Positions 4,850 through 41,796 of a stretch of 64,000 nt of DNA are shown here, one piece after another (the stretch's first letter is position 1; each line of letters starts with the position of its first letter). This DNA comes from Verrucomicrobiota bacterium (GTDB lineage Bacteria > Verrucomicrobiota > Verrucomicrobiia > Opitutales > Opitutaceae). The notes below the pieces were generated by a model, which worked only from the letters and a program-made list of their open reading frames with translations, did not search any database and was not told the DNA's origin. The translations under genes were made by a program, and so were the position numbers. Where the stretch lies: NCBI GenBank assembly GCA_019136515.1, contig JAGVUB010000157.1:124001-188000 (forward strand). The letters run 5' to 3'.

Positions 4850-4901
4850 GCGGGAGGTTTTTGCATTCGCGCGCCGGATTGGGCCGTTGCAGAAGGGTGC
4901 C

Positions 4902-6231: not shown

Positions 6232-6705
6232 ATGAAACTCTACCTCGTCCGCCACGCCCACGCCCTGTCCGATGCCGAGGATCCCGCGCGTCCGCTCAGT
6301 CCGAAGGGGCGGGAGGTGGCGCTGGCGATGGGGCGGTGGCTGGGCCGGCACGCCAAGCCGGCGGTGCTGGAACTCTGGCACAGTCCGCTGGTGCGCGCGC
6401 GGGAGACGGCGGAGCTGTTCGCCGAGGGCGCCCACCTGAAGGTGCCGCTGCGCGAGGCCGCGGGGCTGTTGCCGGAGGATCCGCCGGAGCCGATGGCCGC
6501 GGCGCTGGGCCGTCATGGCGATTCGGTGATGATCGTGGGGCACGAGCCGTTCCTCTCCGCGCTCGCCGGCCACCTGCTCGGCCTCGGCAACGGCGGGGTG
6601 GAGTTCCAGAAGGGCGCGGTGCTCTGCCTCGAGCGCGGACCGCGCGGCACGCCGTGGACGCTCGCCTGGCATGTGAGCCCGACGATCGTGGTCGGCGACG
6701 AGTGA
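6232..6705 (+). CDS. sixA: Phosphohistidine phosphatase SixA-like
   Basis: A 157-residue member of the histidine phosphatase superfamily, SixA type, which removes phosphate from phosphohistidine on signalling or phosphotransfer proteins. The catalytic RHA motif is at the N-terminus (MKLYLVRHAHA, His 8). The second motif pair is present (WHSPLVRARETAEL), and the late catalytic His lies in VMIVGHEPFLSAL. Length and motif spacing are normal for the short SixA form. Start is the ATG at 6232; the region upstream is repeat DNA. No kinase or phosphotransfer partner is adjacent, so the substrate is not evident. Confidence 0.88.
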   Translation: MKLYLVRHAHALSDAEDPARPLSPKGREVALAMGRWLGRHAKPAVLELWHSPLVRARETAELFAEGAHLKVPLREAAGLLPEDPPEPMAAALGRHGDSVMIVGHEPFLSALAGHLLGLGNGGVEFQKGAVLCLERGPRGTPWTLAWHVSPTIVVGDE

Positions 6706-7249
6706 TCAGTGGCCGGTAGGCGGTGGACGGTGGGCGGTGGACAGAAGGCGGATGACGGCCGACCGAGTGACAGGTACCGGAAACGGACGACGGACGGCTG
6801 ATGACGGATTGCGGCGCGGGCGGTCGCTGCCCTCGCGCGCCGCGCTACGGGTGGGAAGCTCGGATTCTTGGGACGTCATCAGCGTCCATCAGCGTTTATC
6901 AGCGGTTCCACTCTCCGGTGGCTCGGCTTCCTGATTTCCGCATTCTCCGTGTCCGGTTTCCGGAGTGTTGTGAACCACTGATGGGCTTCGCCAAGGGGCG
7001 AAGCCTTGGGCGTGTCCTGCGGCTGATCGCCGCAGGGGCGACGGGTGCCGGCGCCCGCTGATCGCGGGCGGTCGCTGCACTCACGCGCAGCGCTACAGAT
7101 GGCGGGTGTGGCAGGGTGCTTTGGATTTCCGGAATCCATCAGTGTGAATGAGTGTGCTCTGCCGTACGGCAGAGTGGTTCCAGTTTCCGTCGCTTGGTCC
7201 GGTTTCCGGAGTTGGATTGGCATCGGGTCCCGGCTGAGAATCGACGCCG
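6706..7249. repeat. Non-coding repeat mosaic between sixA and the RmlD-like gene
   Basis: No gene seen. It holds a purine-rich GGTGGACGGTGGGCGGTGGA tract, a hairpin-plus-GCTAC unit, CATCAGCG repeats, an inverted arm, a triple-hairpin element at 6972-7071, another hairpin-GCTAC unit, and a one-mismatch copy of the 20-base palindrome at about 7155-7174. Confidence 0.82.
6972..7071 (+). repeat. Triple-hairpin element, copy 2
   Basis: Same order and strand as copy 1: GAACCACTGATGGGCTTCGC, then CCTGCGGCTGATCGCCGCAGG-type and CGCCCGCTGATCGCGGGCG hairpins, followed directly by GGTCGCTGCACTCACGCGCA. Confidence 0.88.
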
Positions 7250-8179
7250 ATGCGAATCTTCCTCACCGGGGCCTCGGGCCTGCTCGGCGGCAACTTCGCC
7301 GCGGTGGCGGCGCGCGCCGGGCATGAGGTGACCGGTGTCGTGGGTTCGTGGAACGGCGCGCCGATCGCCGGGTTGGCGCGACAGCTCCGCCTCGACCTGA
7401 CCGATCTCGCGTCGATCGCCGCGGCGGTGCGGGCGGCCCGCCCGGAGGCGATCGTCAACTGCGCGGCGATGTCGGAACCGGCGCAGTGCGAGCGCGAGCC
7501 GGAACGCGCGGGGGCGCTCAACGTGGCGCTGCCGCGGCGGCTGGCGGAGCTGGCGGCGGAGCTCGGCGTGCGGCTGGTGCATGTCTCCAGCGAGCAGGTC
7601 TTCGATGGCACGCGGGCGCCGTACGGCGTCGCCGACCCGGTGGCGCCGCTCACGCTCTACGGTCGCCAGAAAGCGGAGTCGGAGCGCGCGGTGCGGGCCG
7701 CGGCGCCGGGGCTCGGGGCCGCGGTGCGCGTGCCGCTGCTGCTGGGCCACAGCCCGGGCGGCCGGCGCAGCGTGCACGAGCGGCTGCTGCGCGACTGGGC
7801 CGAGGGGCGCGCGGCGCGCCTCTTCACCGACGAGATCCGGCAGGTGTGCATGGCCGACAATCTCGCCGCCGTGTTGCTGGAGCTGTGCGGACCCGCGGCG
7901 CCGGGCGGGATTCTCCACTGGGCCGGCGCGCAACCGGTTTCCCGTTACGAACTCGGCCGGGCGATCGCGGCGCGGTTCGGTCTCGACGCGGCGCAGCTCA
8001 TCGTGCCCGTGCGGCTCGCGGGCACGGCGCTCGCGGCCGTGCGGCAGGCGGATCTCTCGCTGGATCTGCGGCCGCTGAGTGAAGCGCTCACGACGAAGCC
8101 CGAGCCGCTCGCCGTGCAGGTGGCGCGGTTGGCTGTGCCGGATGATCTGCGCGAGTCGCTGGCGCGGCTGGGCGCGTAG
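7250..8179 (+). CDS. Extended SDR, dTDP-4-dehydrorhamnose reductase (RmlD)-like
   Basis: A 309-residue NAD(P)-dependent extended short-chain dehydrogenase. The Rossmann motif is at the N-terminus (LTGASGLLGGNF). NCAAMSEPAQCEREPE is the RmlD-type 'NaAAyt.vD.aE' segment in variant form. The catalytic region has VHVSSEQVFDGT and then LYGRQKAESER, the YxxxK motif. Members reduce dTDP-4-keto-rhamnose or act on related nucleotide sugars, or serve as MAT2B-like proteins. The replacement of the usual AYTxVD suggests a substrate other than the standard one. No other rhamnose gene is nearby. It is flanked on both sides by repeat mosaics. Confidence 0.82.
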   Translation: MRIFLTGASGLLGGNFAAVAARAGHEVTGVVGSWNGAPIAGLARQLRLDLTDLASIAAAVRAARPEAIVNCAAMSEPAQCEREPERAGALNVALPRRLAELAAELGVRLVHVSSEQVFDGTRAPYGVADPVAPLTLYGRQKAESERAVRAAAPGLGAAVRVPLLLGHSPGGRRSVHERLLRDWAEGRAARLFTDEIRQVCMADNLAAVLLELCGPAAPGGILHWAGAQPVSRYELGRAIAARFGLDAAQLIVPVRLAGTALAAVRQADLSLDLRPLSEALTTKPEPLAVQVARLAVPDDLRESLARLGA

Positions 8180-8209
8180 TCGCTCGCCCGCCGATCGCAG
8201 GCCGAGGCA

Positions 8210-8376
8210 AATCTGGAACTCAGCGTAGACGCGCCGGGGCGCGGCCTTGCGGGGAAGCAACACGGCCGAGTCGTCGGAGCGGAGGATGACCACGGATCAC
8301 ACGGATGGGCACGGATGATCGGGGGACGATCCGTGGACATCCGTGAAATCCGTGGTTTCAGGTTCATGTTGCTTGA
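8210..8376 (+). repeat. ATCCGTG inverted-repeat element, copy 1
   Basis: Begins AATCTGGAACTCAGCGTAGA and ends TTCATGTTGCTTGAG. Its right half is one large inverted repeat whose arms each hold three spaced copies of ATCCGTG or its complement. A near-identical copy lies at 10044-10214. Confidence 0.85.
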
Positions 8377-8536
8377 GCGCGTGGACGCAGGAAACGAAGC
8401 CCGAAACGGCGGAGCGCCCGGGATTTCCGGGACCATCAGTGTGAATTAGTGTGGATTAGTGGTTCCACTCTCCGCGGCCTGGCTTCCTGAGTTCGTGGGT
8501 TCCAGATTCTCAGCGGTTCAGTATCCGGAGTTTTGT

Positions 8537-8636
8537 GAACCACTGATGGTCTTCGCCAAGGGGCGAAGCCTTGGGAGTGTCCTGCGGCTGATCGCCGCAG
8601 GGGCGGTGGGTGGCGGCGCCCGCTGATCGCGGGCGG
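8537..8636 (+). repeat. Triple-hairpin element, copy 3
   Basis: The three stem-loops are conserved; the first reads GGTCTTCGCC instead of GGGCTTCGCC. Same strand as the other copies. Confidence 0.87.
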
Positions 8637-8859
8637 ATGGGGAGAATGTGGAAATCAGGAATACGGGAACGGAGAGCGGGGAGCGCTTGGGGTTTTCCGG
8701 GATCCATCAGCGTCCATCAGCGTGCTCGGCCGTACGGCAGAGCAGTTCCATGCTCCGGGGGCCGTTTCCTGGTTCCCTGATTTCCACATTCCTTCCGCCG
8801 CCATCTGTTCCTGAGTTCGTGAGTTCCAGATTCTTCGGGAGCGGATCTTCGGAGGTTTT

Positions 8860-8959
8860 GAACCACTGATGGGCTTCGCCAAGGGGCGAAGCTTTGAGGG
8901 CGTCCTGCGGCTGATCGCCGCAGGGGCGGTGGGTGGCGGCGCCCGCTGATCGCGGGCGG
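8860..8959 (+). repeat. Triple-hairpin element, copy 4
   Basis: Follows copy 3 by only about 220 bases. The three stem-loops are intact, and it runs into GTCGCTGCGCTCACGCCCAG. Confidence 0.87.
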
Positions 8960-9009
8960 TCGCTGCGCTCACGCCCAGCGCTACAAGCGGAGGCGGTGCA
9001 TGGCGGCGC

Positions 9010-10008
9010 TCAGCGCTTCTTCCAGGGCGTGGCGGCGAGGGCGCGCTCGGCCTTGAGCTTGAGGTAGCTGGTCACGCGGCCGAGCTCGAGCGTGCCGGCG
9101 GCGAGCGCGGCCTGCACGGCGCAGCCGGGCTCGGTGCCGTGGCGGCAGTCGCGGAACCTGCACAACGCGGCGGCGGCGGCCACCTCGGGGAAGAGCTCCT
9201 CCAGCGGTGTATCCGCATCCCAGAACTGGAATTCGCGCATGCCGGGCGTGTCGAGCAGCAGCACGCCGCCGGGGCCGACGAGCAGCTCGCGGCTGGTGGT
9301 GCAGTGGCGCCCCTTGGCATCGGCCTCGCGCACCTCCTGCACGGCCTGCACCTCGTCGCCAAGCAGGCGGTTGACCAGCGACGACTTGCCCACGCCGGAG
9401 ACGCCGAGGAAGGCCACGGTCTCGCGTTTGCGCAGCCAGGGCTTGAGCGCCTTGGCGCCGCCGCGTTTCACGGCGTTGGCGGTGACGACCGGCGCGCCGC
9501 CCACGAGCGGTTCGAGCTCGGCGCGGAGGGAGTCGGGCGACTCGTGCAGGTCGGCCTTGTTGAGCACGACGACGGGGGCGATGCCGCCGGAGCGCACCGC
9601 CGTGAGGAAACGTTCGATGCGGCGGTGGTTCACCGGGGCGTCGAGGCCCACGACGATGAAGACGGTGTCGAGGTTGGCGGCGAGGATCTGCTGCTCCTCG
9701 CGGCGGAAACCGGCGGCCTGGCGGGAGAGCACGGTGCGGCGCGGGAGCACGGCGAGCAGGCGCGCGCGGGGTTCGTCGGCGCGCGGCTCCACGGCCACCC
9801 AGTCGCCCGCGACGGGCAGATCGGCGCGTTTGGCGGAGCGGTGGCGGAGCTTGCCGGCGGGTTCGGCGAGGATCTCGCCCTCGTCGGTGGTCACGCCCCA
9901 GCCGCGTCCGAAGTCGGCGGTGACGCGCGCGGGCACCACGCCCGGCGCGGCGAAGGGCGCGAAGGCGGCGGCGAGGGAGTCGTTCCAACCGAGGGCGGCG
10001 AGGGACAT
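9010..10008 (-). CDS. rsgA: Ribosome small-subunit GTPase RsgA (YjeQ)
   Basis: A 332-residue circularly permuted GTPase that acts in late 30S ribosome assembly. It has an N-terminal OB-fold region (residues 25-110), the early G4 motif VVVLNKADL (147-154), G1 GVSGVGKSS (202-210), G2-like GRHCTTSREL (233-242) and G3 LLDTPGMREF (251-260). A C-terminal zinc site is formed by Cys283, Cys288, His290 and Cys296 in CRFRDCRHGTEPGC. Order and length are normal. The start at 10008 (MSLAALGWND) excludes an in-frame upstream extension that runs into repeat DNA. Confidence 0.94.
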   Translation of the reverse strand: MSLAALGWNDSLAAAFAPFAAPGVVPARVTADFGRGWGVTTDEGEILAEPAGKLRHRSAKRADLPVAGDWVAVEPRADEPRARLLAVLPRRTVLSRQAAGFRREEQQILAANLDTVFIVVGLDAPVNHRRIERFLTAVRSGGIAPVVVLNKADLHESPDSLRAELEPLVGGAPVVTANAVKRGGAKALKPWLRKRETVAFLGVSGVGKSSLVNRLLGDEVQAVQEVREADAKGRHCTTSRELLVGPGGVLLLDTPGMREFQFWDADTPLEELFPEVAAAAALCRFRDCRHGTEPGCAVQAALAAGTLELGRVTSYLKLKAERALAATPWKKR

Positions 10009-10043
10009 GGCAGAGGACAGAGAGCAGAAGACGGAGACCGGAG

Positions 10044-10214
10044 GAATCTGGAACTCAGCGTAGACGCGCGCCGGGGCGCGGCCTGGCGGGGAAGCAACAA
10101 CGAGGAACCATTCCAGCAGAGGGTGACCACGGATCACACTGATGGGCACGGATGATCTCGGGACGATCCGTGTACATCCGTGAAATCAGTGGTTTCTGGT
10201 TCATGTTGCTTGAG
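10044..10214 (+). repeat. ATCCGTG inverted-repeat element, copy 2
   Basis: Near-identical to 8210-8376 over its whole length, including the GGCGCGGCCT segment, the triple ATCCGTG arms and the TTCATGTTGCTTGAG end. It lies just upstream of rsgA's start, so it may contain or displace that gene's promoter. Confidence 0.85.
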
Positions 10215-10288
10215 AGGAATCAGAAATGGACGACGGAGGGCGGACGACGGAATGGCGAAATGTGGGAATCAGGAAAACGGGAGGGGGC

Positions 10289-10729
10289 TCAGTCGAACTC
10301 GTTGAGCGTGAGGGTTGGGGGCACGGTGGACGGTGGTCGGTCAGCGGTGGACCGTGGCCGGTTGGCAGTGGCCGGTTGCCGGTGGTCGGTGAACGGTGGA
10401 CGGTGGTTGGCAGCTGGTGTGGCGCTGGGCGCGGGAGCAGCGCTCGGCTGCCGGGTGTCGGTGCCGGGGGTGGTCTGGCGGACGAGCTGCCGGAGCGTGG
10501 GGAAGAGGGGATGGGCGGCGTTGGCGCGGTAGTACCGGCGGTTGCCGTCGCGTTCGCTGACAACGAGTTGCGCGGCGGCGAGCTTGGCCAGCTCGGTCTG
10601 GATCGTACCGAGGGCGAGGCCGCTGCGGCGGGTGAGCTCGCGCAGGTGCAGCTCGGCGGAAGCGTCGGCGAAAAGCAGCCGCAGGACTTGGGCGCGGACT
10701 TGGGGGAAGAGGATGGAGAGCAGATCCAC
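10289..10729 (-). CDS. Winged-helix regulator with a repeat-derived C-terminal tail
   Basis: A 146-residue protein. Residues 1-82 form a winged helix (LFPQVRAQVLRLLFADASAE, LHLRELTRRSGLALGTIQTE, LVVSERDGNRRYYRANAAHP). In known proteins with this HTH wording, a nucleotidyltransferase domain usually follows. Here, from about residue 88, the sequence is DTRQPSAAPAPSATPA and then Arg/Pro/Thr-rich text encoded by the GGTCGGTGAACGGTGGACGG repeats that also fill spacers. The catalytic domain is therefore absent, and the tail and stop codon come from repeat DNA. It may still bind DNA, or be a decaying gene. Confidence 0.6.
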   Translation of the reverse strand: MDLLSILFPQVRAQVLRLLFADASAELHLRELTRRSGLALGTIQTELAKLAAAQLVVSERDGNRRYYRANAAHPLFPTLRQLVRQTTPGTDTRQPSAAPAPSATPAANHRPPFTDHRQPATANRPRSTADRPPSTVPPTLTLNEFD

Positions 10730-11149
10730 GACGACTGGTTAAAGCGGACGGATGACTGGATAAAGCGAACGAAAGGGGAGGCAAGACGGAAGCTGGAGGG
10801 CGGAGGGATGGACCACTAATGCACACTGATGGACACTAATGTCGGAGCGGAGGAGGGGGCGCGGACGACCGATGACAGAGGACCGATGACAGAGGACCGA
10901 TGACAGAGGACAGACGACAGAGGACGGAGGACAGAGGGCGGGGGGCGGAGGACGGGGTGACAAGTGGCAGGTGGGGCGGATGGCGGAAGACTGGGCGAAT
11001 CTGGAACTCAAGAAATCAGGAACGGATGGTGGCGGAAGGAATGTGGAAATCAGGGAATCAGGAACGGATGGTTCACAACGGAAGAGGGAAGGCCGGACGA
11101 ATCTGGAACGCAGGGAATCAGGAAACGCTCCCGGCGGACGGGCGGTGGC
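10730..11149. repeat. Purine-rich and arm-repeat spacer
   Basis: No gene seen. It contains the GATGACAGAGGACC tandem array at 10867-10960, then several copies of the 'GAATCTGGAACTCA' or 'GAATGTGGAAATCAGG' arm (10985-11125), all on the plus strand. Confidence 0.75.
10867..10960 (+). repeat. Purine-rich tandem repeat
   Basis: Three perfect 14-base units of GACCGATGACAGAG decay into GACAGACGACAGAGGACGG and GGGCGGGGGGCGG. Nearly all purine on this strand except for the C in each GAC. Confidence 0.85.
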
Positions 11150-11425
11150 CTATTCGGCGAGCAGGGCGGCGAGATCGAGCGGGTGGGTGGACATCGCCAG
11201 CGAGCCGTCGGGCGTGCGGGGCCATTGGTCCTGCGGGCGGTCGCGGTAGAGCTCCACGCCGTTGCCGTCGGGATCGCGGAGGTAGAGCGCCTCGCTCACG
11301 CCGTGATCGGCGGCGCCGTCGAGCGCGATGCCGGCGCGTTGGAGGCGCCGGAGGGCATCGGCCGAGGTGGCGCGGTCGGTCGGGTGGGCATGGGCGAAGG
11401 AAGCCGCGGAAAGCGCGGCCCGCAA
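11150..11425 (-). pseudogene. VOC/glyoxalase-fold dioxygenase, C-terminal half only
   Basis: About 90 residues matching the last half of a vicinal-oxygen-chelate protein: ATSADALRRLQRAGIALDGA, ADHGVSEALYLRDPDGNGVE and LYRDRPQDQWPRTPDG. This includes the metal-binding Glu of GNGVELY and the DHG motif. The N-terminal VOC module is missing. The homologous text begins at about 11415, some 12-20 bases from a 12-base palindrome at 11435-11446; upstream in frame there is a stop near 11444, and the only start is a TTG. The 5' half was evidently lost when the neighbouring restriction-type/defence DNA arrived. Confidence 0.78.
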
Positions 11426-11434
11426 CCGCCGCGC

Positions 11435-11473
11435 GTTTATGACTCATCGTCTATAAACTTCTGAGTCATAAAC
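11435..11473 (+). promoter_or_regulatory. Palindromic operator/promoter before a truncated XRE gene
   Basis: Perfect 12-base inverted repeat GTTTATGACTCA (11435-11446) and TGAGTCATAAAC (11462-11473) around a 15-base AT-rich spacer holding TATAAA. It precedes the XRE fragment start by 15 bases. The GACT...AGTC core resembles the C-boxes bound by controller proteins of restriction-modification systems. The palindrome is seen; the regulator assignment is inferred. Confidence 0.6.
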
Positions 11474-11488
11474 CTGTAGGATCGCCGG

Positions 11489-11605
11489 ATGCGAAAACAG
11501 AAGGCGAAGCCCCTCGTCCGCTTCGGCGAGAATGTCCGCGCGTTGCGCGAGAAGAAGGAGTGGACGCAGGAACGCTTGGCCGCCGAGACCCTTAGCAGGC
11601 GGTAA
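11489..11605 (+). pseudogene. XRE-family regulator, truncated after the first HTH helices
   Basis: A 38-residue open frame starting MRKQKAKPLVRFGENVRALR and continuing EKKEWTQERLAAET, the start of an XRE/Cro helix-turn-helix. After AAET the frame reads LSRR and stops at 11605. The break (about 11590) falls exactly where the lower-GC island begins, since the 3' end of the DUF2075 gene lies at 11592. I read this as a regulator cut by insertion of the island. Confidence 0.72.
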
Positions 11606-13583
11606 GGCTTCGGATTCCGCAGGTGAGCAGATAATCAGCGACCGGATCGTAGTATTCTGGAAGGCGGGTTGGATCGTTGGGATCGCCCTTGGGTACGAAG
11701 ATCACAAGGCCTTGTCGCGCGCGAGTTAGCAGAACGCGGTGAGCGTTGAGCAGGTATCGGCGGCTGGTCTCATCGCAAACTTGCTCCCACCTCGTCCCTC
11801 TGAATTTCCGGAACGCCCAAGCATTTCCATCCCGGCGCAAGTTTGCATCCCAGCCAACCAAGCTCCAGTCGAGCTCGAGGCCCTGAATGTCGAACTCGGT
11901 CGCGACTTCCTCCAGGTAATGACAGGAACGAACGTCAGCCGAGTCGTTCAAGAACCAGACTTCTGGCTCAATCTTCGCGGCGACATCCATCCCCTCGGGG
12001 CGAAGGCGTCTTGCCCCCGAATAGGCAGTCAGACCAATCAGCTCCGATCCTCGCTTCTTCCAGCGCAGCCACCGTTGACCAACAGGCAGGCTCCGAGTGA
12101 GGAGCACTGGGTAGTTCTCACGAATTGCGGAATAGCAGCTCGCGGCTTTGTCAGGCTCGTTGTCGATCACATGCCCAACGAATTTGGATAGGGTTTCTGC
12201 CCTGAAGGAGCGAAGCGAGACGCCGAGGTGTAAACTTGGTGACGACGATGAATGAAGGCCTGCCGTGAGCTCGCCAACAGGTTGATGGCTCGAGTACTCG
12301 TGCGTTGCGAAACGATCGGAGTAGAACACTTGCCAGTGTGAGAACCGCGCACGCAATGCTCGGAACCACTCAGGAAGGCCCGCTTCCCCTGAGTTGATTT
12401 CCTGCCCTCCACCAACTAGCGCGATGATCACACACCAATCGGCGTGCCGGTCCATGACCTCGATGAGAAACTCAGGCTCAGAAGAATGGAACTCCGTGAG
12501 GTCCCGCTTGGTGCGCATGAACTTTGATGTGTGCTCCTGATCCCATGCGCGCTGGGCTTCGTCGAAGACGACGACTTTTTCGACCGTGGCCAGATTGCTG
12601 GCGAGGTTCGAGTCACGAAAATGGTGTATGTTCTGAATGAACGCATGCGCGTTGCGATTCGCGTCCTTGAGTGAAACTGAAGTGCGTTCCTTCTGGTCTC
12701 GGGCAAGTGCAGCGCGCAGGACTGAAACGAGCGGGCCATTTCCGGAAAGAAAAACAGCATGCTCGTCGCTGTGGTGCCGCATGCGGTCAGTGGTGATGTT
12801 TAGGCCCGCCAGAGTCTTTCCCGCACCAGGAACGCCGGTCACGAAACAGATGGCTTTCTGCCGTTTGGCTTTCGCCGCCTCGATGATCTCGCTGATCGCC
12901 TGCGTTGTTTCACTGAGGTTGATCGCGCTCGCGTCGCTCCGCGCGATCTCAGCGACACTATGGTCTCGGTACAGCGCCCGAGCTGCCTCGATGATGGTCG
13001 GCGTCGGCTTATAGCGGGAGTTTGCCCATGCCTTTCCTTCGACTTCCGGGGCGGGGGGCAGGGCTGCGATAACCTCTGTCACCGTTTGCCGCAGGTCTCT
13101 GGCGTTGCAGCACTGACAATTTGCGACCCGGTCTGTGTGGAAGCTGATGGTGTTTTTCGCCGGGTTCGCGGCTGTCGCGATTACGATCGGGATGATACTC
13201 GCGGCGTGGCTGCCCTCGTGGAAATTTTTGAGGTCCAAGGCGTAGTCGACTGCCTGTGCCAAGGCAGCGGATGCATAGACCGACTCTCCTATCTTGAACT
13301 CAAGGACGATTACTGCACTGCGAATGATCAGTGCGGCATCAGCTCGCTTGCCCATCCTCGGGATCTTGAGCTCGAGGAACACCATACTGCAATCGGTGCC
13401 ATGAAGCTGATCCCTGAGGATCCGGATTTCGTCCCGCCAAGCGTTTCGCTGTTGGATGCTTTGGTCGTGCTCCGCAGCTGCTGCGAGGTGTCCCAGAATG
13501 GTGTTCTCATCCGCAGCCAAGAACTCCGCGAGCGATGCCGAGAAGTACGCTCGTCCGATTGGTGTGCAGCCGCTGGCGCTCAT
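11592..13583 (-). CDS. PD-(D/E)XK nuclease-SF1 helicase fusion, DUF2075 family
   Basis: A 663-residue protein. Residues 78-98 read GKRADAALII...VLEFKIG, with Asp82, Glu95 and Lys97 as a PD-(D/E)XK nuclease site. After a linker comes a DUF2075 (Schlafen group 3-like) helicase. Walker A is FVTGVPGAGKT (ending Thr257), Walker B VVVFDEAQRAWDQ (337-349), LVGGGQEINSG (motif III-like) follows, and helicase motif VI is VLLTRARQG (617-625). The family is found in mobile and defence loci, but its mechanism is not established; cutting or unwinding foreign nucleic acid is inferred. It follows the XRE gene by 14 bases in the same direction, so the two form an operon. Base composition is clearly less GC-rich than the neighbours, a sign of transfer. 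Confidence 0.85.
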   Translation of the reverse strand: MSASGCTPIGRAYFSASLAEFLAADENTILGHLAAAAEHDQSIQQRNAWRDEIRILRDQLHGTDCSMVFLELKIPRMGKRADAALIIRSAVIVLEFKIGESVYASAALAQAVDYALDLKNFHEGSHAASIIPIVIATAANPAKNTISFHTDRVANCQCCNARDLRQTVTEVIAALPPAPEVEGKAWANSRYKPTPTIIEAARALYRDHSVAEIARSDASAINLSETTQAISEIIEAAKAKRQKAICFVTGVPGAGKTLAGLNITTDRMRHHSDEHAVFLSGNGPLVSVLRAALARDQKERTSVSLKDANRNAHAFIQNIHHFRDSNLASNLATVEKVVVFDEAQRAWDQEHTSKFMRTKRDLTEFHSSEPEFLIEVMDRHADWCVIIALVGGGQEINSGEAGLPEWFRALRARFSHWQVFYSDRFATHEYSSHQPVGELTAGLHSSSSPSLHLGVSLRSFRAETLSKFVGHVIDNEPDKAASCYSAIRENYPVLLTRSLPVGQRWLRWKKRGSELIGLTAYSGARRLRPEGMDVAAKIEPEVWFLNDSADVRSCHYLEEVATEFDIQGLELDWSLVGWDANLRRDGNAWAFRKFRGTRWEQVCDETSRRYLLNAHRVLLTRARQGLVIFVPKGDPNDPTRLPEYYDPVADYLLTCGIRSLTAC

Positions 13584-14274: not shown

Positions 14275-14871
14275 GTGGCGCTGCTGCGGGCGGGCGGCAT
14301 CACGGGGTGGAGGCGGGGGCAGCGGTTGGCGCTGCGGCGACTGTGGCCGGTTGCCGGTGGACATGCGGACGAACGGGGGCTGAAGCATCCCGCCACGACG
14401 GACCGGAGCTGCGGCCACGGACCGGCTACCGGCCACCGTTCACTGGCCACCGGTACGGTGCAGCCCGACTTCGTGTTTCGGCGGGAGCGGCTGGTGGTGT
14501 TTGTCGACGGGTGCTTCTGGCACGGGTGTCCGCGGCACTACACGCGGCCGAAGGCGCGGCGGGCGTTCTGGGACGCCAAGATCGCGGCCAACCGGGCGCG
14601 CGACCGGCGGATCGACCGGGCGTTGCGCGCGGCGGGCTGGCGGGTGCTGCACGTGTGGGAGCATGCGCTGGCGCCGCGACAGCTCGGGCGCACGCTGGCG
14701 CGGGTGCGGCGGGCGGTAGCCGGTGGACGGTGGCCGGTTGCCGGTAGACGGAGGGCGGTGGACGGAGGGCGGTGGACGTTCTGCCGTTCGGCATTCGTGC
14801 CCCCGGCAGAACCTGCGGGAATCTTCGGCGCGGCGCCTCCGAGTGGGTGGGCGGTTTCCGGTAGCCGGTAG
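14275..14871 (+). CDS. Vsr-like (very short patch repair type) endonuclease invaded by repeats
   Basis: The core reads VQPDFVFRRERLVVFVDGCF, WHGCPRHYTRPKARRAFWDA, KIAANRARDRRIDRALRAAG and WRVLHVWEHAL, the conserved C-terminal part of Vsr and related PD-(D/E)XK nicking enzymes. The DFVF Asp, the WHGC segment and the final WEHAL are present. The expected N-terminal half survives only as LVALLRAGGITGWRRGQRL (the gene starts at a GTG within it). It is followed in frame by about 40 residues encoded by CCGGTTGCCGGTGGACATG-type repeat DNA. The last 55 residues are also repeat text, and 14770-14855 is identical to intergenic 16931-17016. Probably inactive. Vsr genes usually sit beside cytosine methyltransferases; none is left here. 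Confidence 0.68.
   Translation: MALLRAGGITGWRRGQRLALRRLWPVAGGHADERGLKHPATTDRSCGHGPATGHRSLATGTVQPDFVFRRERLVVFVDGCFWHGCPRHYTRPKARRAFWDAKIAANRARDRRIDRALRAAGWRVLHVWEHALAPRQLGRTLARVRRAVAGGRWPVAGRRRAVDGGRWTFCRSAFVPPAEPAGIFGAAPPSGWAVSGSR
14770..14855 (+). repeat. 86-base repeat unit, copy 1 (inside the Vsr-like gene)
   Basis: Begins CGGTGGACGTTCTGCCGTTC and ends GAGTGGGTGGGCGGT. By eye it is identical base for base to 16931-17016. It supplies the C-terminal residues of the Vsr-like frame. Confidence 0.9.
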
Positions 14872-15537
14872 CCGGTAGACGGAGGACGGAGGGCGGTGCG
14901 GGCTATCGCTGCGCTACGAGGAGGGGCGGTCGGGCATCTGCGTCCATCAGCGTTTATCCGCGGTTCCACTCTCCGCGGCTCGGTCCGGTTTCCTGATTTC
15001 CTGAGTTCCACATTCTCCCGTGTTCGAAATCCGGAGTGTTGTGAACCATTCTCCCGTGCGGAAGAACCTTCGGCTGATGGCCTTCGCCAAGGGGCGAGGC
15101 CTTGGAAGTGTCCTGCGGCTGATCGCCGCAGGGGAGGAGGGTGACGGCGCCCGCTGATCGCGGGCGGGTGGGGTGAATGTGGAAATCCGGAACACAGGAA
15201 CCGAGAAGACCAGGCGGGCGCGGTGCGCGGCCGCGAGATCCCGGAACGGTTCACGAGCAGGAACAAGTGGAGCCGGAGCGCTTCCTCTGTGCTCTCTGTG
15301 GACTCTGTGGTTCATTTCCGCTGTCAGCGTGCTCCTCGATACGGCAGAGCGGTTCCATGCTTCGCGGTCTGGTCCGGTTTCCTGAGTTCGTGAGTTCCAG
15401 ATTCTCCGGGCCCTGAAACGAGGGGGCGGTGCCGGCGGCCGGGCCGCTGGGCGGGCTTTGGCGCCGCTGGCGGCCCGGGACGCCCCGGTCGCAAGATTCG
15501 GTTCGCCGTAATGGCCGTCCGCTGACCATCCTCCGCC
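14872..15537. repeat. Non-coding repeat mosaic between the Vsr-like gene and the cyclase
   Basis: No gene seen. It holds GGTAGACGGAGGACGGAGGG runs, CATCAGCG words, an inverted arm, triple-hairpin copy 5 (15074-15168), a GAATGTGGAAATCCGG arm paired with GTTTCCTGAGTTC near 15380, a CTCTGTG run, and a degenerate 20-base palindrome at 15331-15350. Confidence 0.82.
15074..15168 (+). repeat. Triple-hairpin element, copy 5
   Basis: Divergent at its left end (CTGATGGCCTTCGCCAAGGG replaces the usual GAACCACTGATGGGC), but the second and third stem-loops are intact. Confidence 0.84.
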
Positions 15538-16893: not shown

Positions 16894-16930
16894 GAAGGTG
16901 GCCGGTTGTCGGTGGGCGGTAGCCGGTGGA

Positions 16931-17016
16931 CGGTGGACGTTCTGCCGTTCGGCATTCGTGCCCCCGGCAGAACCTGCGGGAATCTTCGGCGCGGCGCCTC
17001 CGAGTGGGTGGGCGGT
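16931..17016 (+). repeat. 86-base repeat unit, copy 2 (intergenic)
   Basis: Identical by eye to 14770-14855. It contains TTCTGCCGTTCGGCA and GGCGCGGCGCCTCCGAGTGG. A related shorter form lies at 18017-18065. Confidence 0.9.
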
Positions 17017-17873: not shown

Positions 17874-18306
17874 GGGAGGGCGCGAGGCGCCGGCGGGGTT
17901 GCCGGTGTGCGAGAAGGATGGCGACGGGAGGGGCCGTGGCCATCCGTGCTGGATGAGTGGCCGCGGGAATCGGCGACCGGGCGGCGCGAATGGCGCGAGG
18001 GGCGGTTGCCGGTGGACGTTCTGCCGTGCGGCAGAATCTCCGGCGCGGTGCGCCTCCGAGTGGGTGGGCGGTTTCCGGTAGCCAGTAGCCAGTAGCCAGT
18101 AGCCGGTAGACGGAGGACGGAGCGGGCGGTCGCTGCGCTCACGCGCAGCGCTACGAGGAGGGCGCGAGGGTTTTCCGGGCCCCGTCAGCGTTTATCCGCG
18201 GTTCCAATCTCCGAGGTCCGGTTTCCTGATTCCCTGATTTCCACATTCCAGGGGTCGCTCCGCATCGGGTCTTGTGTCGGCGGCGACGGTGGACAGTGGT
18301 TGCGGC
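17874..18306. repeat. Repeat-containing spacer upstream of engB
   Basis: No gene seen. It holds the TTCTGCCGTGCGGCAGAA palindrome unit (18017-18046), GCCAGTAGCCAGTAGCCAGT short tandem copies, a GCTGCGCTCACGCGCAGC hairpin followed by GCTACGAGGAGG, and an inverted arm (TTCCTGATTTCCACATTCC) near 18225-18248. Confidence 0.8.
18017..18046 (+). repeat. 30-base palindrome-plus-tail unit (intergenic copy)
   Basis: Contains TTCTGCCGTGCGGCAGAA followed by TCTCCGGCGC. By eye all 30 bases are identical to 22584-22613, which lies inside the DUF748 coding sequence. Confidence 0.9.
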
Positions 18307-19536: not shown

Positions 19537-19683
19537 ATCGCTGCGCTCACGCGCAGCGCTACCGGCAAGGCCGAGTGCTTGGGCGGCCGGGCATCAGCGT
19601 CTATCAGCGTTTATCAGCGGTTCCATTCTCCGATGTCCGGTTTCCGGATTCCCTGATTTCCACATATCCAGCCGGGTCGTTCC

Positions 19684-22600
19684 TCACTGGAGGTTGAAGA
19701 CGACGCGCGGGACGGTCGTGGCGCCGGCGGCGGGCGGGACCCCGGCGGGGGCGAGGAAGACGCGGGCGGCGTCGATCGAGCCCTTGGTGAGCAGGTATTC
19801 CTGGATGCGCTGGGCGCGCTGGGCGGCGAGTGCGGCGAAGGCGGAGTCGTCAGGGGTGAGCGTGGCGAGCACCTGTGCGCGGAGCTCCTCGGGCGTGAGC
19901 GCGGGCGGGGTGTCGGCGGCCGGTTGTCGGTTGCCGGTATCCGGTTGGCGGTTGTCGGTGGCCGGTTGTCGGTGGGCCGACCCGGAGGCGGCGGGATGCT
20001 GGGCACGCTCGGCGGGCGTCGGGTCGACGAAGAGGCGGCGGAGGGTGCGCACGACGAGGTTGGGCTTCGGGTTTCGTGTCTCCGTTTCCGGAGTGGTCGC
20101 GGCGCTGTGGGATGGCGTCGGGTCGTTGTCGGAAGTCCGGTCGGAGACCGGACCTACGGGCCGGCCTGTCGGCTGGTGGGACGGGGCGGCGATCGGCTTG
20201 GTTTGGCTCGGCTGCGTGGCGGATGTTTCGGGCGGGCAGCGTTCGGCGTGGAGTTCGGCGAGGTAGCGGGCGGTCTCCTCCGCGGTGGGTTGCACGGTGG
20301 CGGGATCGATGGGCTCCGCCGTGGTGGCGGCGAGCTCGCGCAGCTTGCGGGCGCGCAGGAGCGCCTCAAGCTGGGTCTCGCGCAGGCCGGCTAGGTCGAG
20401 CTCGCGTTGCGGCTGGCTGGAGATCTCGAGGCTGAGGCCGGGGCGCTCGGTGAGGGCCTTGGCGAGACCGTCGAGGCGGGCGAGCGCCTCGGGCGTGAAC
20501 TCGGCGGAGCCGGAGGCGAAGTCGACGGCGCTCAGGTCGTGGCCGCCGCCGAAGAGGCCGCCGAGCAGGGCGAAGGGCGCGGTGGCGGCCTTCACGACGA
20601 GGTTGCCGAGGGTGCGCATGACCATCCTGCCGTACTTGAAGTCCGGATCGTCGAGGTTGCCGCGGATGGGCAGGTCGATGGCGATGCGGCCGTCGCGGTC
20701 GCGCAGGATGGCCAGCGCGAGCTTGAGGGGGAGTTTCACCGCGTCGGGGCTCTCGACGGACTGGCCGAGGTAGAACTGGTCGAGCACGACGTTGTTCTCG
20801 GCGGCGAGCTCGCGGGCGGAGAGGTGGTAGGCGAGGTCGAAGCTGAGCTTGCCCTTGTCGACGGTGTAGCCGGCGAACTTGCCGGAGTACGGGGTGAAGG
20901 GCGGCAGCTCGATGCCGGTGAAGGTGATCTTCACGTCGGTGAAGGCGTCGCCGGCGAGGGGGTTGATCTTGCCGCTGACCTTGAGCGGCGCGAGGCCGAG
21001 GCGGCCGGCGAGGTCGACCTCGGCGCGGGCGAGCTGCTCGGAGGAGAGGCCGGAGATGGTGCCGCCGAAATCGGTGAGCTCGGTGGTGAACGCGGGCGAG
21101 ACGGAGCGGTCGGTGGCGGTGAAGCGGGCGCCGGCGAGCGTGACGCGGGCGATGGTGATCTGCGGTCGGGCGCCGGCAGCGGTCTCGGGTTTCGGGTTTT
21201 GGGTTTCGGGTTCTGGGACGGCGGAGACCGGGGCGGAGGCGGAGGTCGCAGGCAGGGACGCCTGCGCCACGGCCGGAGCGGGGGCCGCGGTCTTGAGGAT
21301 CGCGGTGAGGTTGAGGCGCTTGTCGGGGAAGACGATCGCGTGGGCGTAGGGGGCTCGGAGGGCGATCTCGTCGATGGCGACGGCGAGGGGTTGCGTGGTC
21401 GCGCGGATGTTGGCGAGGGCGAGGTCGGCGAAACCGAAGAGGGGTTCGGAAAACTCGCCGTCGACGGTGGCGAAGGCGGAGACCCCGGCCTCGCCCTGCC
21501 AACGGAGGTCGGGGGCGCCGTCGGCGGTGAGCGCGAAGGTGACGTGGCCCTTGGCGCGGGCGGCGCCGCCGGTGAGGCGGAGGTCGGCGAAGGGCGCGAG
21601 GTAGGGATCGAGCGGACGCAGGGCGAGGTCGGCGACCTCGAGCTGGAGATCGGCGGCGAGGGGTTGGGGGGTGACGGTGCCCTCGAGCGCGATGCGACCG
21701 GCGCCGCCCCAGCGCAGGGAGGTGGCGAGGGCGACGGGCTGGTCGAGGCGGGTGCTGGCGCCGGTGAGCTTGAGGGCGAGCTGATCGATCACGAGCTCGA
21801 CAGGGCGCGGGTTGGTGAGGTCGTGGAGGCGCAGCGTGGCGTCGGCGAGTTCAAGCGTGCCGAGGGTGGCGGACCACGGGGCGACGGCACTGCCGGTGCC
21901 CGGTGATCGGTTGTCGGTTGTCGGTGGCCGGTGGTCGGGCGCGGGCGCGGTTTTCGCAGGCACGGAGGACTGCGCCATGGCCGGGGCGAGCAGGGCGAGC
22001 CAGTCGATGGTGCCATCGGCGCGGCGGGTGGCGGAGAGATCGGCGCCGCGGACGAGGATGGTGGCGATGGAGGCCTCCTGTTTGGCGGTGTCGGAGGAGA
22101 GGCCGGAGAGTTCGACGAGGGGGATCGTGGCCAGCGGGGTGGTGGTGCCGCGGGCGGCGAGCTTGAGGTCGGTGAGGGTCACGCGGCCGTTGGCGAGGCG
22201 GGCGACGGGGGCGGCGCCCGAGAGGTCGAGGGTGTAGTCGAGTTCGACGCCGAGGCGGCCGGAAAGGAGATCGAGTTGGTGGAGATCGCGGTGGAAGGCG
22301 GCGTACTTGGGCAGGTTGAGATCGGTGATGGCGACACGGCCGGCGGAGCCGAGGGGCAGGAAGGTGAGGCTGCCCTGCCAGGCGAAGCGTTCGCCGGCCT
22401 CGGTGGCGGCCTCGAAGGTGTAAGCGCCGGCCTCGCGGGGGCGGGTGGTGAAGTTGCGCAGGACGAAGGAGGTGGGGCCGAAGCGGGTCTCGAAGGGCGC
22501 GCTGAGGGACTTGTCGGCGTAGGTGAACTCGCCCCGGGTGAGCTCGAACTTGGCGATGCGCAGGGGGGGCGGGAGCACGGGGGCGTTCTGCCGTGCGGCA

Positions 22601-23034
22601 GAATCTCCGGCGCTTCGCGCCTCAGAGGTGGCCGGCGGCGGGAGCAGGTCGGCGATGTTGAGGGCGCCGGCGGCGTCGCGGTAGAGGCGGGCGCGGGGGT
22701 GGACGAGGTGGATCTCCTCGAAGCTCCAGGCGAGCCGACCGAGGGAGGCGAGCGGGGAGAAGTCGACATGGAGCTCGTCCCAGCCTGCGAACTCGGCGCC
22801 GTCGTGGGCGGCGACGGCGAGGCCGCGGACGGTGAGGGAGCACGTCAGCGGGTTGATGCGTACCTGATCGATGGTGACGGGACGCTTGAGCGCGGCGGAG
22901 GCGTGCTTGACGGCCTGCTGCCGGACGACGACCGGAGCGAGGAAGAACCCGGCGAGCGTGTAGGCGGCGAAGAGGCCGGCGAGCCAGAGGAGGAGCCGGC
23001 GACGGCGCCGGAGGAAGGAGGGAAGCGAGCGCAT
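19684..23034 (-). CDS. Giant AsmA-like DUF748 envelope protein with repeat-encoded insertions
   Basis: A 1116-residue protein anchored by an N-terminal helix (about 13-35, LLLWLAGLFAAYTLAGFFLA). It opens with the DUF748 lead KHASAALKRPVTIDQVRINP and has beta-rich AsmA/TamB-like repeats (FAGWDELHVDFSPLASLGRL, FSFDLAYHLSARELAAENNV, VLDQFYLGQSVESPDAVKLP, RDRDGRIAIDLPIRGNLDDP). An OmpA-like piece (VDFASGSAEFTPEALARLDG) follows. Such proteins probably work in the periplasm in lipid or envelope traffic. At least eight stretches are encoded by genomic repeats: HRQPATDNRQPDTGNRQPA, PETETRNPKPN, HQPTGRPVGPVSDRTSD, PETQNPKPET, AQASLPA, DHRPPTTDNRSPG, AQSSVPA and RSAGDSAARQNAPV. All keep the frame and lie in loops. 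It is followed upstream by a transglycosylase gene in the same direction. Confidence 0.88.
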   Translation of the reverse strand: MRSLPSFLRRRRRLLLWLAGLFAAYTLAGFFLAPVVVRQQAVKHASAALKRPVTIDQVRINPLTCSLTVRGLAVAAHDGAEFAGWDELHVDFSPLASLGRLAWSFEEIHLVHPRARLYRDAAGALNIADLLPPPATSEARSAGDSAARQNAPVLPPPLRIAKFELTRGEFTYADKSLSAPFETRFGPTSFVLRNFTTRPREAGAYTFEAATEAGERFAWQGSLTFLPLGSAGRVAITDLNLPKYAAFHRDLHQLDLLSGRLGVELDYTLDLSGAAPVARLANGRVTLTDLKLAARGTTTPLATIPLVELSGLSSDTAKQEASIATILVRGADLSATRRADGTIDWLALLAPAMAQSSVPAKTAPAPDHRPPTTDNRSPGTGSAVAPWSATLGTLELADATLRLHDLTNPRPVELVIDQLALKLTGASTRLDQPVALATSLRWGGAGRIALEGTVTPQPLAADLQLEVADLALRPLDPYLAPFADLRLTGGAARAKGHVTFALTADGAPDLRWQGEAGVSAFATVDGEFSEPLFGFADLALANIRATTQPLAVAIDEIALRAPYAHAIVFPDKRLNLTAILKTAAPAPAVAQASLPATSASAPVSAVPEPETQNPKPETAAGARPQITIARVTLAGARFTATDRSVSPAFTTELTDFGGTISGLSSEQLARAEVDLAGRLGLAPLKVSGKINPLAGDAFTDVKITFTGIELPPFTPYSGKFAGYTVDKGKLSFDLAYHLSARELAAENNVVLDQFYLGQSVESPDAVKLPLKLALAILRDRDGRIAIDLPIRGNLDDPDFKYGRMVMRTLGNLVVKAATAPFALLGGLFGGGHDLSAVDFASGSAEFTPEALARLDGLAKALTERPGLSLEISSQPQRELDLAGLRETQLEALLRARKLRELAATTAEPIDPATVQPTAEETARYLAELHAERCPPETSATQPSQTKPIAAPSHQPTGRPVGPVSDRTSDNDPTPSHSAATTPETETRNPKPNLVVRTLRRLFVDPTPAERAQHPAASGSAHRQPATDNRQPDTGNRQPAADTPPALTPEELRAQVLATLTPDDSAFAALAAQRAQRIQEYLLTKGSIDAARVFLAPAGVPPAAGATTVPRVVFNLQ
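19916..19980 (+). repeat. GGTTGTCGGT-type repeat inside the DUF748 coding region
   Basis: Tandem-like CCGGTTGTCGGTTGCCGGTA and GGTTGTCGGTGGCCGGTTGT, the same words found in spacers at 10330-10420, 14717-14775 and 48412-48430. It encodes the HRQPATDNRQPDTGNRQPA linker on the minus strand. Confidence 0.85.
20136..20160. repeat. TCCGGTCGGAGACCGGAC hairpin inside the DUF748 coding region
   Basis: 25 bases that differ at one position from the intergenic copy at 41691-41715. It encodes GPVSDRTSD on the minus strand. Confidence 0.88.
21248..21272. repeat. GCAGGC/GCCTGC hairpin unit inside the DUF748 coding region
   Basis: The first 22 bases are identical to the intergenic copy at 39974-39995 (GCAGGC...GCCTGCGCCA). 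It encodes AVAQASLPA. A diverged copy is at 21956-21980 in the same gene and another in the transglycosylase gene near 24235-24254. Confidence 0.87.
22584..22613. repeat. TTCTGCCGTGCGGCAGAA unit inside the DUF748 coding region
   Basis: 30 bases identical by eye to intergenic 18017-18046. It encodes AGDSAARQN in the N-terminal third of the protein. Confidence 0.9.
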
Positions 23035-23101: not shown

Positions 23102-24358
23102 CTAGGGCTTGGCGGGCGCGGCGGCGACGGCGAGCGGCCGGGCCGGCGTGGGCGCGGGCAGGGAGAACGGGTCGATGTTCTCGCGGGCGGCGACGGTGGC
23201 GAGGACCTTGGGCACGTAGAAGCGGGTCTCGGCCGGGAGGCGGTCGGCGATCTCGTCGAAGCTGCGGCGCCTGGCCTTGTCGAGCTCGCGGGCGATGCGG
23301 CCCTCGCCGGCGTTGTAGGCGGCGAAGGCGAGCGGCCATTCGCCGAAGCGGCCGTGCAGGAAACGTAGATACTGCGCGGCGGCCCGGGCGCTCTTCTCGG
23401 GGTGCGTGCGCTCGTCGAAGGGGAACGTGCTCAGCCCGAAGCGCTTCGCCGTGGCGGGCATGAACTGGAACAGGCCCCGCGCCCCGGATGGGCTCTCCGC
23501 CTCGGGGTCGAAGGAGGACTCGACCTCGGCGAGCCAGACGCATTCGGGCGGGACGCCCTCGGCGCGGAAGATGTCCTTGAGTTTCGGAGCCAGCTCGGCG
23601 GCGCGCGGCGGGGGCGTGCGCTGGGCGATGCGGCGGGTCCAGGTGGGGTTGCTCGTCGCCGAGCGGTAGACGCGGTCGCGCACGACCTCGAAACGCAGGG
23701 TCGGTCGCGGGCGCACGGCGGGCGGGCGGGCAGGGTCGGGCGCGGGCAACGCGCGGAGGCGCTGCTGCTCGGCCTCCCATTGGCGGCGCGAGGTCTCGAC
23801 GGCCTCCGCGGCGAGATCGAGGTAGTCCATGCGCGGCGCGAGCCAGTCGGCGTACGGGCCGCCCCAAGGCTGGGTGCGCAACCACGCGAGCAACTGCGCG
23901 GCCTGCGGGCGCAGCGCGGCGAAATCCTCGATGCTGCCGAGGGCGAGGGCATCGGCCACGGGCTGGAGCTGTTTCACGAGCTGCTGGATCTGCTCGGGGG
24001 TGAGCGGCTCGAGCTCCTCGGTTTCGAAATTCTCTTCCAGCCAGGCGCGGCCGCTGTCGAGAATGCTGTCGATCAGGGCGGTGGTGGCGTCGCTGGTGGC
24101 GGGCGGCGCCGCGGTTTCGGGTTTCGGGCTTCGGGTATCAGTTTCTGTGGCGGCGGCCGGCTGGGCCACGGAAGCGGAGTTGGTGGTGCACGCCGGCGCG
24201 GCGGAGGCCTCCGTGCCGGCGGGACTGGAGCTCGCGGGCAGGGACGGCTGCGCCACGGCGAGAGAGCCGGCGGTGGCGAGCAAAGCGGCGAGTGTGCGAG
24301 GTCCGAGCACGGGGAAAAGTGTGGGTGTGCGACCGCGCGGAGTCGATGTCCGTTCCAC
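23102..24358 (-). CDS. Lytic transglycosylase, MltD/SLT family
   Basis: Periplasmic murein-cleaving enzyme of 418 residues. The catalytic domain (about 255-410) has VWLAEVESSFDPEAESPSGA with catalytic Glu280, then RGLFQFMPATAKRFGL, AAAQYLRFLHGRFGEWPLAF and AAYNAGEGRI, the usual SLT motifs, and ends near the VPKVLATVA helix. The N-terminus has a hydrophobic signal (LAALLATAGSLAVA). Both the listed GTG start and a GTG at 24310 fit; the latter gives a cleaner signal peptide. Residues about 36-86 are a Pro/Ala/Thr linker containing AQPSLPA and TDTRSPKPET, both encoded by genomic repeat units. No LysM domain is present. It lies 67 bases upstream of the DUF748 gene in the same direction, so an envelope operon is likely. 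Confidence 0.9.
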   Translation of the reverse strand: MERTSTPRGRTPTLFPVLGPRTLAALLATAGSLAVAQPSLPASSSPAGTEASAAPACTTNSASVAQPAAATETDTRSPKPETAAPPATSDATTALIDSILDSGRAWLEENFETEELEPLTPEQIQQLVKQLQPVADALALGSIEDFAALRPQAAQLLAWLRTQPWGGPYADWLAPRMDYLDLAAEAVETSRRQWEAEQQRLRALPAPDPARPPAVRPRPTLRFEVVRDRVYRSATSNPTWTRRIAQRTPPPRAAELAPKLKDIFRAEGVPPECVWLAEVESSFDPEAESPSGARGLFQFMPATAKRFGLSTFPFDERTHPEKSARAAAQYLRFLHGRFGEWPLAFAAYNAGEGRIARELDKARRRSFDEIADRLPAETRFYVPKVLATVAARENIDPFSLPAPTPARPLAVAAAPAKP

Positions 24359-39795: not shown

Positions 39796-40187
39796 GCGGG
39801 TGCGGCGCAGGAGCGCAGAAGGAGTGAATGTGGAACGCTGGAAACAGGCAGGAACGGGCGGCGGCAGGCGGAGGAACCAGAGAATCTGGAACTCATGAAC
39901 TCAGGAAGCGGGGGCGAAACGTGGCACGGTGCTTCAGCCCGTGCCGGCGATGGCCGGCGTGGGAGGGTGGGGCGCAGGCAGGGACGCCTGCGCCATGGTT
40001 CGCCGGTCCCCGATCCCGCGGCCGAGAATAGGGTTGCCCGTATTGGCCGAGGCGGGCGAAGGTCGGGGAGCGAAGAATACCGCGCCGGAGCCGGATTCTC
40101 GCCGCGGTACCCAGGGTCGTTTCGGCGGCCCGCCCGCGACGTGGAGACGGAACCGGTGGATCCCCTGTTCCACCCTGCCTTCCCGCC
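39796..40187. repeat. Repeat-containing spacer between cydB and secreted-family member C
   Basis: No gene seen. It holds GAATGTGGAACGCTGG and GAATCTGGAACTCATGAACT arms, a GGCACGG/CCCGTGCC hairpin near 39920-39945, and the GCAGGC/GCCTGC hairpin unit at 39974-39995. The remaining 190 bases before the gene show nothing clear. Confidence 0.7.
39974..39995 (+). repeat. GCAGGC/GCCTGC hairpin unit (intergenic copy)
   Basis: 22 bases identical by eye to the copy at 21248-21269 inside the DUF748 coding region. Confidence 0.88.
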
Positions 40188-41429: not shown

Positions 41430-41796
41430 GGCGCGAGTAGCTGGACGAGGGACGAGAGCGGGAAGACCGCGGATAGACCGGAGCGGGGCAACCGAGGTCG
41501 CACCCTACGGGGCGACTTGGGCCGCTCCCGAACCACGGCTGGCCGGCCCGGGTCAGCGCCTCCGGCTACAGCAGGCCGCGCCGTCGGGGGGGGGAGGTCA
41601 GCCGTGATCATGCAGTCCGCGAGCAGGTCCAGTCTCTGGCTGGACCTGCCGGAGCACGTGAGCCGGCGGTCATGGCTGGAGTCGGAGGTGTCCGGTCGGA
41701 GACCGGACCCACGGGGCGAGCATGCCGGCCGGTGGTGTCACCAACGGTGGCCGGAGGTTCGCTCGTGGATTCGCATGCACCCGCAGCTCTGGACGC
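41430..41796. repeat. Spacer between convergent genes with hairpin units
   Basis: No gene seen. It holds a GGTCCAG/CTGGACC hairpin near 41628-41647, the TCCGGTCGGAGACCGGAC unit at 41691-41715, and otherwise unremarkable GC-rich DNA. Confidence 0.65.
41691..41715. repeat. TCCGGTCGGAGACCGGAC hairpin unit (intergenic copy)
   Basis: 24 of 25 bases match the copy inside the DUF748 gene at 20136-20160. Confidence 0.88.

Follow-up and report, generated by a model that had tools for sequence, protein, structure and literature searches.

How do short repeats that lie in intergenic spacers also come to form part of a protein? The question is raised by a gene for a DUF748/AsmA-like envelope protein (hereafter the DUF748 gene) in a 64,000-nucleotide stretch of an Opitutaceae genome of the Verrucomicrobiota (G000:C2:124001-188000), which is called the window. 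The initial annotation had read eight stretches of this gene as copies of palindromic repeat units also found in spacers, and had proposed an active route by which such repeats make new protein linkers, with the DUF748 gene as a hotspot. Mobile repeats did make protein linkers; very probably, several dispersed families were inserted in genes and were kept where they lay in frame within linkers, and the DUF748 gene tolerates such insertions rather than attracting them.

The genome under study (G000; 4.11 Mb in 202 contigs) was compared with a sister species (G002), with a congener of both (G001) and with further genomes including G005, G006, G014, G016, G017 and G025. Statistics inside genes and in spacers were obtained on 1.19 Mb (29%) of G000, a sample partly picked for carrying repeats. 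Genes (634) were called with our own codon-usage caller and no published program, and matches within one low-scoring gene call (C135:31816-33420) were excluded from the counts. A Pfam-type profile search gave weak YhdP/AsmA similarity for the DUF748 protein.

A DNA search of the DUF748 gene against its own genome returned 57 places, in separate short blocks that correspond to the stretches of the initial annotation. The matches quoted there were reproduced exactly (22584-22613 with 18017-18046, 30/30; 21248-21269 with 39974-39995, 22/22; 20136-20160 with 41691-41715, 24/25), and the segments belong to several unrelated families, designated A, B, G, H and I (Table 1). Family A (GTAGGTCCGGTCTCCGACCGGAC) bears the GTAG tag of certain repetitive extragenic palindromes (REPs) and occurs 173 times in the genome at up to 2 mismatches, whereas its reversed control has 0 matches. 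Of 85 sampled copies, 70 have a neighbour of the same family within 200 bp, mostly inverted and at a distance of 62-67 bp. Family I (GTGGCGCAGGCGTCCCTGCCTGC, of the form GTGGCGCAGGC..GCCTGC) has 9 copies in G000 (control 0), its complete copies being twins of 59 bp in which the second REP (GCAGGCACGGAGGCCTGCGCCAC) is inverted; it is commoner in G016 (25), G025 (23) and G017 (12), where GTAG stands in the place of the GTGG of G000. Family B consists of an 18-bp palindrome (TTCTGCCGNNCGGCAGAA) and a tail, about 44 bp in all, without a GTAG tag. Perfect palindromes of this family number 25 in G000 (control 0), 3 in G002 and 1 in G001, and in spacers they are often embedded in CGGTNNN arrays. Such tandem CGGTNNN arrays constitute family G, whose four-unit pattern has 179 matches in G000 (control 1), 217 in G002, 1 in G001 and few elsewhere; family H is tandem GGGTTTC. 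The GGTTGTC and GGGTTTC stretches had been called palindromic, and are instead heptanucleotide arrays. By sequence, a GGGTTTC array offers four GGG runs, and a CGGTNNN array GG runs only. Arrays of period 7 number 56 in the 1.19 Mb (47 per Mb), whereas periods 5, 8, 10, 11 and 13 give 0-2, and period 7 also stands out in G014, G006 and G002, the G002 figure being inflated by contigs chosen for repeats. Separately, G014 (L195-L204) has an excess of period-8 arrays too (30 per Mb), which is not so in the other genomes. A search of Rfam gave no match. The quoted words are genuine dispersed repeat families, chance being excluded by genome counts that lie far above those of the controls. As to the number of stretches, the list of eight stands in the main, except that 20058-20092 is weak and that a degenerate family I copy at 21956-21980 had been missed.

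Table 1. Repeat-derived segments of the DUF748 gene and related features of the window
Feature	Position	Strand	Reading or sequence	Evidence
DUF748/AsmA-like envelope protein gene	19684..23034	-	1116 aa	PF05359, E 9.5e-260; gene call; orthologues across the family
Family G1, CGGTNNN heptamer array	19923..19973	+	HRQPATDNRQPDTGNRQP (gene strand)	nhmmer E 1.8e-9; absent from G002 and G001 orthologues
Possible short GGGTTTC-type stretch, weak	20058..20092	+	TPETETRNPKP	16/28 period-7 matches, a level met by 1.2% of 51-bp windows
Family A twin-REP	20135..20196	+	PIAAPSHQPTGRPVGPVSDRT	intact GTAG REP at 20135-20159 and decayed inverted partner
Family H, GGGTTTC heptamer array	21180..21222	+	VPEPETQNPKPETAA	period-7 array; related array in G002 orthologue; 28/30 match in MoxR gene
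Family I REP, left half of 59-bp twin element	21246..21272	+	AVAQASLPA	nhmmer E 1e-6; complete twin at G002 site
Family G2, CGGTNNN heptamer array	21892..21938	+	PDHRPPTTDNRSPGTGS	nhmmer E 1.3e-6; absent in G001; G002 without array
Degenerate family I copy, GCAGGCACGGAGGACTGCGCCATGG	21956..21980	+	MAQSSVPA	2 mismatches to G002 variant GCAGGCACGGAGGCCTGCGCCAC
Family B palindrome and tail	22584..22627	+	TSEARSAGDSAARQNA	nhmmer E 1.5e-12; 30/30 identity to 18017-18046
Spacer composite: CGGTNNN array, family B, CGGTNNN array	14710..14900	+		
Spacer composite: CGGTNNN array, then family B	16902..17004	+		
Spacer copy of family B (18017-18060) with CGGTNNN arrays on its flanks	17986..18124	+		
GGGTTTC-type stretch and 59-bp family I twin (24198-24256) in neighbouring SLT transglycosylase gene (23102-24283, -)	24108..24258	+	VAQPSLPASSSPAGTEASA	
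Spacer copy of family I	39974..39996	+		
Spacer copy of family A including spacer flank	41690..41735	+		40/46

The inserted segments of the DUF748 gene sit in linkers whose length varies among orthologues, and the columns occupied by inserts have mean gap fractions of 0.20-0.87 among the other orthologues, against 0.07 gene-wide. The family A segment, longer than first quoted, shares 51/63 identity with a complete spacer twin-REP (C29:8409-8471) and is absent in the G002 orthologue (72% identity), where a 28-residue alignment gap covers the insert. That orthologue likewise has neither family B nor CGGTNNN arrays, and has an I twin and different heptamers in the same linkers. The family B site is filled in G002 by a GGGTTTC-type array, and the linker of G001 is short and plain there. 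G002 holds three period-7 arrays of its own in this gene, so that the tolerance of insertions is a lasting property of the DUF748 protein. At the family I site, G002 has a complete 59-bp twin (VAQASLPAISQPAGTETGAT), of the same length as one intergenic G002 twin and as the copies in two other genes; G000 has the left half only, and G001 none. This insertion preceded the split of G000 and G002 and followed that of G001, unless it took place twice. Over the 26 bases that they share, G000 and G002 do not differ at all, at a third-position identity of 68% for the gene; this may reflect slow change, copies exchanging sequence with one another, or insertion on more than one occasion. A cleaner case of insertion than the DUF748 gene is LarC, which carries a VAQASLPA insert (GSTVAQASLPAVLGS) in G000 at a site that is empty in the 86%-identical LarC of G002. 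The claim that repeats made new protein linkers is thus borne out by orthologues without inserts at the A site of the DUF748 gene and in LarC. Among other hosts, heptamer linkers of the ETGNxKPETGN type occur in MoxR of G000, G002 and G001 only, and the linkers of RsmB differ among these three genomes, with a CTCTCAA array in G005.

The same comparison bears on the reading of the peptides as old conserved linker motifs, with the likeness in DNA due to shared protein ancestry or to codon bias. The recurrence of VAQASLPA, in the same frame, in several unrelated proteins speaks in its favour. The spacer copies, however, share the palindromic structure and the inverted twins, the host proteins are unrelated, and the inserted peptides were not found in the DUF748 orthologues of more distant relatives. 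Since spacer copies and empty orthologues exist, codon composition and homology were rejected as explanations; the old-motif reading is refuted for families A, B and I, and is highly implausible as a whole. Hardly more credible is an assembly artefact, in which repeats would have been wrongly joined in a metagenome-type assembly: the genome is in 202 contigs and repeats do break assemblies, but the frames are open across all joins, the coding sequence runs on at both flanks, and the same linkers recur, filled by related inserts, in the orthologue from an independent genome.

Genes are generally poor in these repeats. Copies per Mb of coding sequence and of spacer are 2.3 and 354 for family A (77 intergenic copies and 2 in genes), 4.6 and 83 for family B, and 14.9 and 129 for family G; in genes these families are thus 9- to 150-fold less frequent than in spacers, from which it follows that most gene insertions are lost, or else persist in special places only. 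Family I is an exception (5.7 per Mb coding, 9.2 in spacers), and looks like an old family surviving mainly in genes. The host genes are mostly conserved by Pfam (rhamnogalacturonan lyase, RsmB/F, MoxR, LarC (Ni_insertion), UvrA-like, SLT and others). All copies in the DUF748 gene do keep the frame, as had been pointed out, but this is survivorship only, because a surviving gene must be in frame. The orientation of copies within genes is uniform (G 13/13, I 5/5, B 4/4): if the family consensus is written as here, the strand that is read is always the other one, and five of five family I copies read VAQxSLPA. Spacer copies of family G have open frames in 54-68% of cases on one strand and in 93-96% on the other, so that stop codons account for part of the bias of this family but not for all of it (13/13 has P about 0.002 at the predicted 0.61). 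Avoidance of G-rich mRNA, which has been reported for other heptamers, would be an alternative source of the bias. Taken over five genomes, 38 of 45 in-gene period-7 arrays are C-rich on the coding strand.

Crowding of the segments in one gene was assessed by an unbiased count, restricted to families definable without the DUF748 gene (A, B and G, by k-mer counts) and to any period-7 array. The gene contains 5 such segments, where the frequency in the remaining genes would predict 0.08 (P 2.7e-8 per gene and, once corrected, about 7e-6), and ranks first among the 634 genes, the next genes holding 3. An earlier count (7 segments against 0.12 expected) was set aside because its families had been defined from the DUF748 gene itself. 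To this extent a hotspot exists, the G002 orthologue having its own arrays, but the reading of the gene as a preferred target, as opposed to a tolerant one, is not supported. That the DUF748 gene would be a preferred insertion site, its new linkers benefiting the cell, might be argued from this excess and from the different families that fill the same linkers in G000 and G002. Against such targeting, no shared target sequence was identified, two or three segments also occur in other linker-rich genes, and all segments lie where insertion is harmless, a placement that selection alone predicts. Moreover, the Poisson null ignores differences between genes in linker length, so that uneven tolerance yields a gene-level excess as well, and the excess supports tolerance as much as targeting. 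A targeted or adaptive origin is accordingly judged improbable, and tolerance of insertions in dispensable linkers is the simpler explanation.

Beside what is observed directly (family status, insertion relative to orthologues, linker position, orientation bias and gene-level excess), a course of events may be proposed for insertion and tolerance. Families A and I would enter as whole twin-REP units, presumably copied, by analogy with known systems, by REP-associated tyrosine transposases (RAYTs), and heptamer arrays (CGGTNNN, GGGTTTC and others) would disperse and afterwards gain or lose units by slippage. Selection would strongly remove those gene insertions that break domains or bring stops. 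The survivors would be open, would lie between domains or just after the signal peptides of secreted enzymes, and would be read from the strand giving a peptide rich in P/T/N/D/R/Q that is probably disordered. The DUF748 protein probably accumulates inserts owing to its large size, its exposure in the envelope and its several long linkers, whose length is free to vary.

For the heptamer segments there is another possible, though rather unlikely, origin: that they are not mobile, and that replication slippage within proline-rich linkers under low constraint produced them where they now lie. According to PMC4679880, bacterial 7-base units have been proposed to undergo slippage, the arrays are degenerate and differ between loci, and other heptamers occupy the same linkers in G002. 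Yet the same CGGTNNN pattern, with about 200 occurrences each in G000 and G002, is found once in the congener G001, and often flanks family B in spacers. Convergence alone leaves one shared pattern unexplained, and slippage gives no account of families A, B or I. Dispersal followed by retention in linkers is thus still preferred, but four points count against it. First, the gap fraction is only 0.29 in the G1 columns and 0.20 in those of the weak stretch at 20058, where orthologues carry other linker residues, so that part of the change may be replacement and not insertion. Secondly, CGGTNNN arrays share a degenerate pattern and are not copies of one another, which makes local growth in place possible for each array. 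Thirdly, a RAYT gene flanked by family A or I was not found among 13 loci of G000 and about 30 from relatives, so that the mobilising enzyme is unproven. Finally, the orthologue comparison is one between species, with no close strains in the set, and has no bearing on current activity.

Seven Y1_Tnp (RAYT-like) genes (L068, L070, L071, L072, L073, L226 and L243) are flanked, in a REPtron-like manner, by GTAG hairpins of other families. A candidate partner is the RAYT-like gene of a further locus in G002 (L227; G002:C129, about 22132-22368), which has GTAGCGGCAGGCAT..GCCTGCC hairpins, similar to family I, on its flanks.

Part of this picture is already known: in-frame palindromic elements from Rickettsia, intragenic GTAG REPs from Opitutus terrae, and heptamers in and between genes. 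Rickettsia palindromic elements (RPEs), in the account of Ogata et al. 2000 given in PMC2229807, are palindromic repeats that occur both between genes and, in frame, within conserved genes, of which the product can stay functional (gmk), and the repeats described here are likewise found in both places. In that account RPEs are single Rickettsia palindromes of 105-146 bp, whereas the present elements are 25-62 bp long, unrelated in sequence and of several families including arrays; identity with RPEs was rejected, as neither size (59-62 bp for the A and I twins, about 44 bp for B) nor sequence agrees. GTAG REPs within genes have been described in several species (PMC3733652, Di Nocera et al. 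2013), O. terrae heading the list of GTAG elements, with both uvrA genes interrupted. The likeness extends to the bacterial family (Opitutaceae), to the short GTAG-tagged hairpins, to dimers and to the location within open reading frames. That paper deals with REPs only, whereas here heptamer arrays and a palindrome without GTAG behave likewise, several families meet in one gene, and insertion is seen against 86%- and 72%-identical orthologues; the O. terrae families were compared by description. REPINs with their RAYTs, as described by Bertels and Rainey 2011 (PMC3116915), have in common with the present elements two inverted REPs with a short spacer, a high copy number and RAYT genes in the genome; here, neither A nor I was found beside a RAYT of this genome, and coding sequence holds copies too. 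As to the individual traits of such REPs, the GTAG/GTGG tag is present in A and I and not in B, inverted pairs with a short spacer are found, and a high, mainly intergenic copy number holds for A, I being of low copy in G000 (9).

Dispersed heptanucleotides have been reported as GGGNATC in Xanthomonas and Nostoc (PMC4692102), GGGACCG in Geobacter metallireducens (PMC2700814) and TAACTGA in Beggiatoaceae (PMC4679880), where the heptapeptide reading of TAACTGA was already remarked upon. Here as there, the units have 7 bases (with an excess of period 7 over neighbouring periods), are mostly intergenic with some in genes, and have their G-rich strand avoided as coding; the motifs differ, CGGTNNN is degenerate, linkers of housekeeping enzymes are used repeatedly, and there is the association with palindrome B. 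The additions made here are the meeting of unrelated classes in one gene, the one-way orientation, presence and absence at single-species resolution, and frame-independent heptamer linkers in core enzymes.

These linkers are frame-independent because 7 is not a multiple of 3: a period-7 array gives the same seven residues in any frame, and can thus enter a gene at any phase and add the same P/T/N-rich peptide. The same peptide in any frame and few stops on one strand are a plain reason why arrays are tolerated. It is conceivable, and is put forward tentatively, that heptamer arrays act as a frame-independent linker generator across Opitutaceae, in which a heptamer of each lineage's own (CGGTNNN here, CTCTCAA in G005 and G006) repeatedly rebuilds loops of envelope proteins and of core enzymes such as MoxR, RsmB and UvrA. 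In a bacterial lineage beyond Rickettsia, non-coding repeats are thus seen to become protein sequence at dated steps, through sites that are filled in some related genomes and empty in others, and heptamer arrays form a second class, beside palindromic elements, that turns into protein. For annotation, recurring VAQASLPA or PATDNRQP in Opitutaceae proteins should be taken as repeat-derived and not as evidence of homology.

Some further observations concern other genes and spacers. The SLT transglycosylase gene next to the DUF748 gene carries the same pair as the latter, a GGGTTTC-type stretch and family I (here as a twin). Further words that are abundant in spacers by k-mer counts (CGCCCGCGATCAGCGGGCG, GAATGTGGAAATCAGG, GGCGATCAGCCGCAGGAC and AGCGAAAGCCGCCAAGG) are found at 19657-19676 of the window and in many spacers of G000. 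The family I peptide (VAQASLPA, VAQTALPA or VAQPSLPA) stands at the likely signal-peptidase site, as judged from sequence, of several secreted proteins. In one cluster (L050, G000:C119:40001-60000, at 2103-13113), pectin/rhamnogalacturonan enzymes (RGL11 lyase, GDSL lipases and BNR_4) carry CGGTNNN, B or I peptides directly after the signal peptide, and a UvrA-like gene of 2025 aa (L100:6680-12757, that is G000:C136:46680-52757) has three heptamer linkers.

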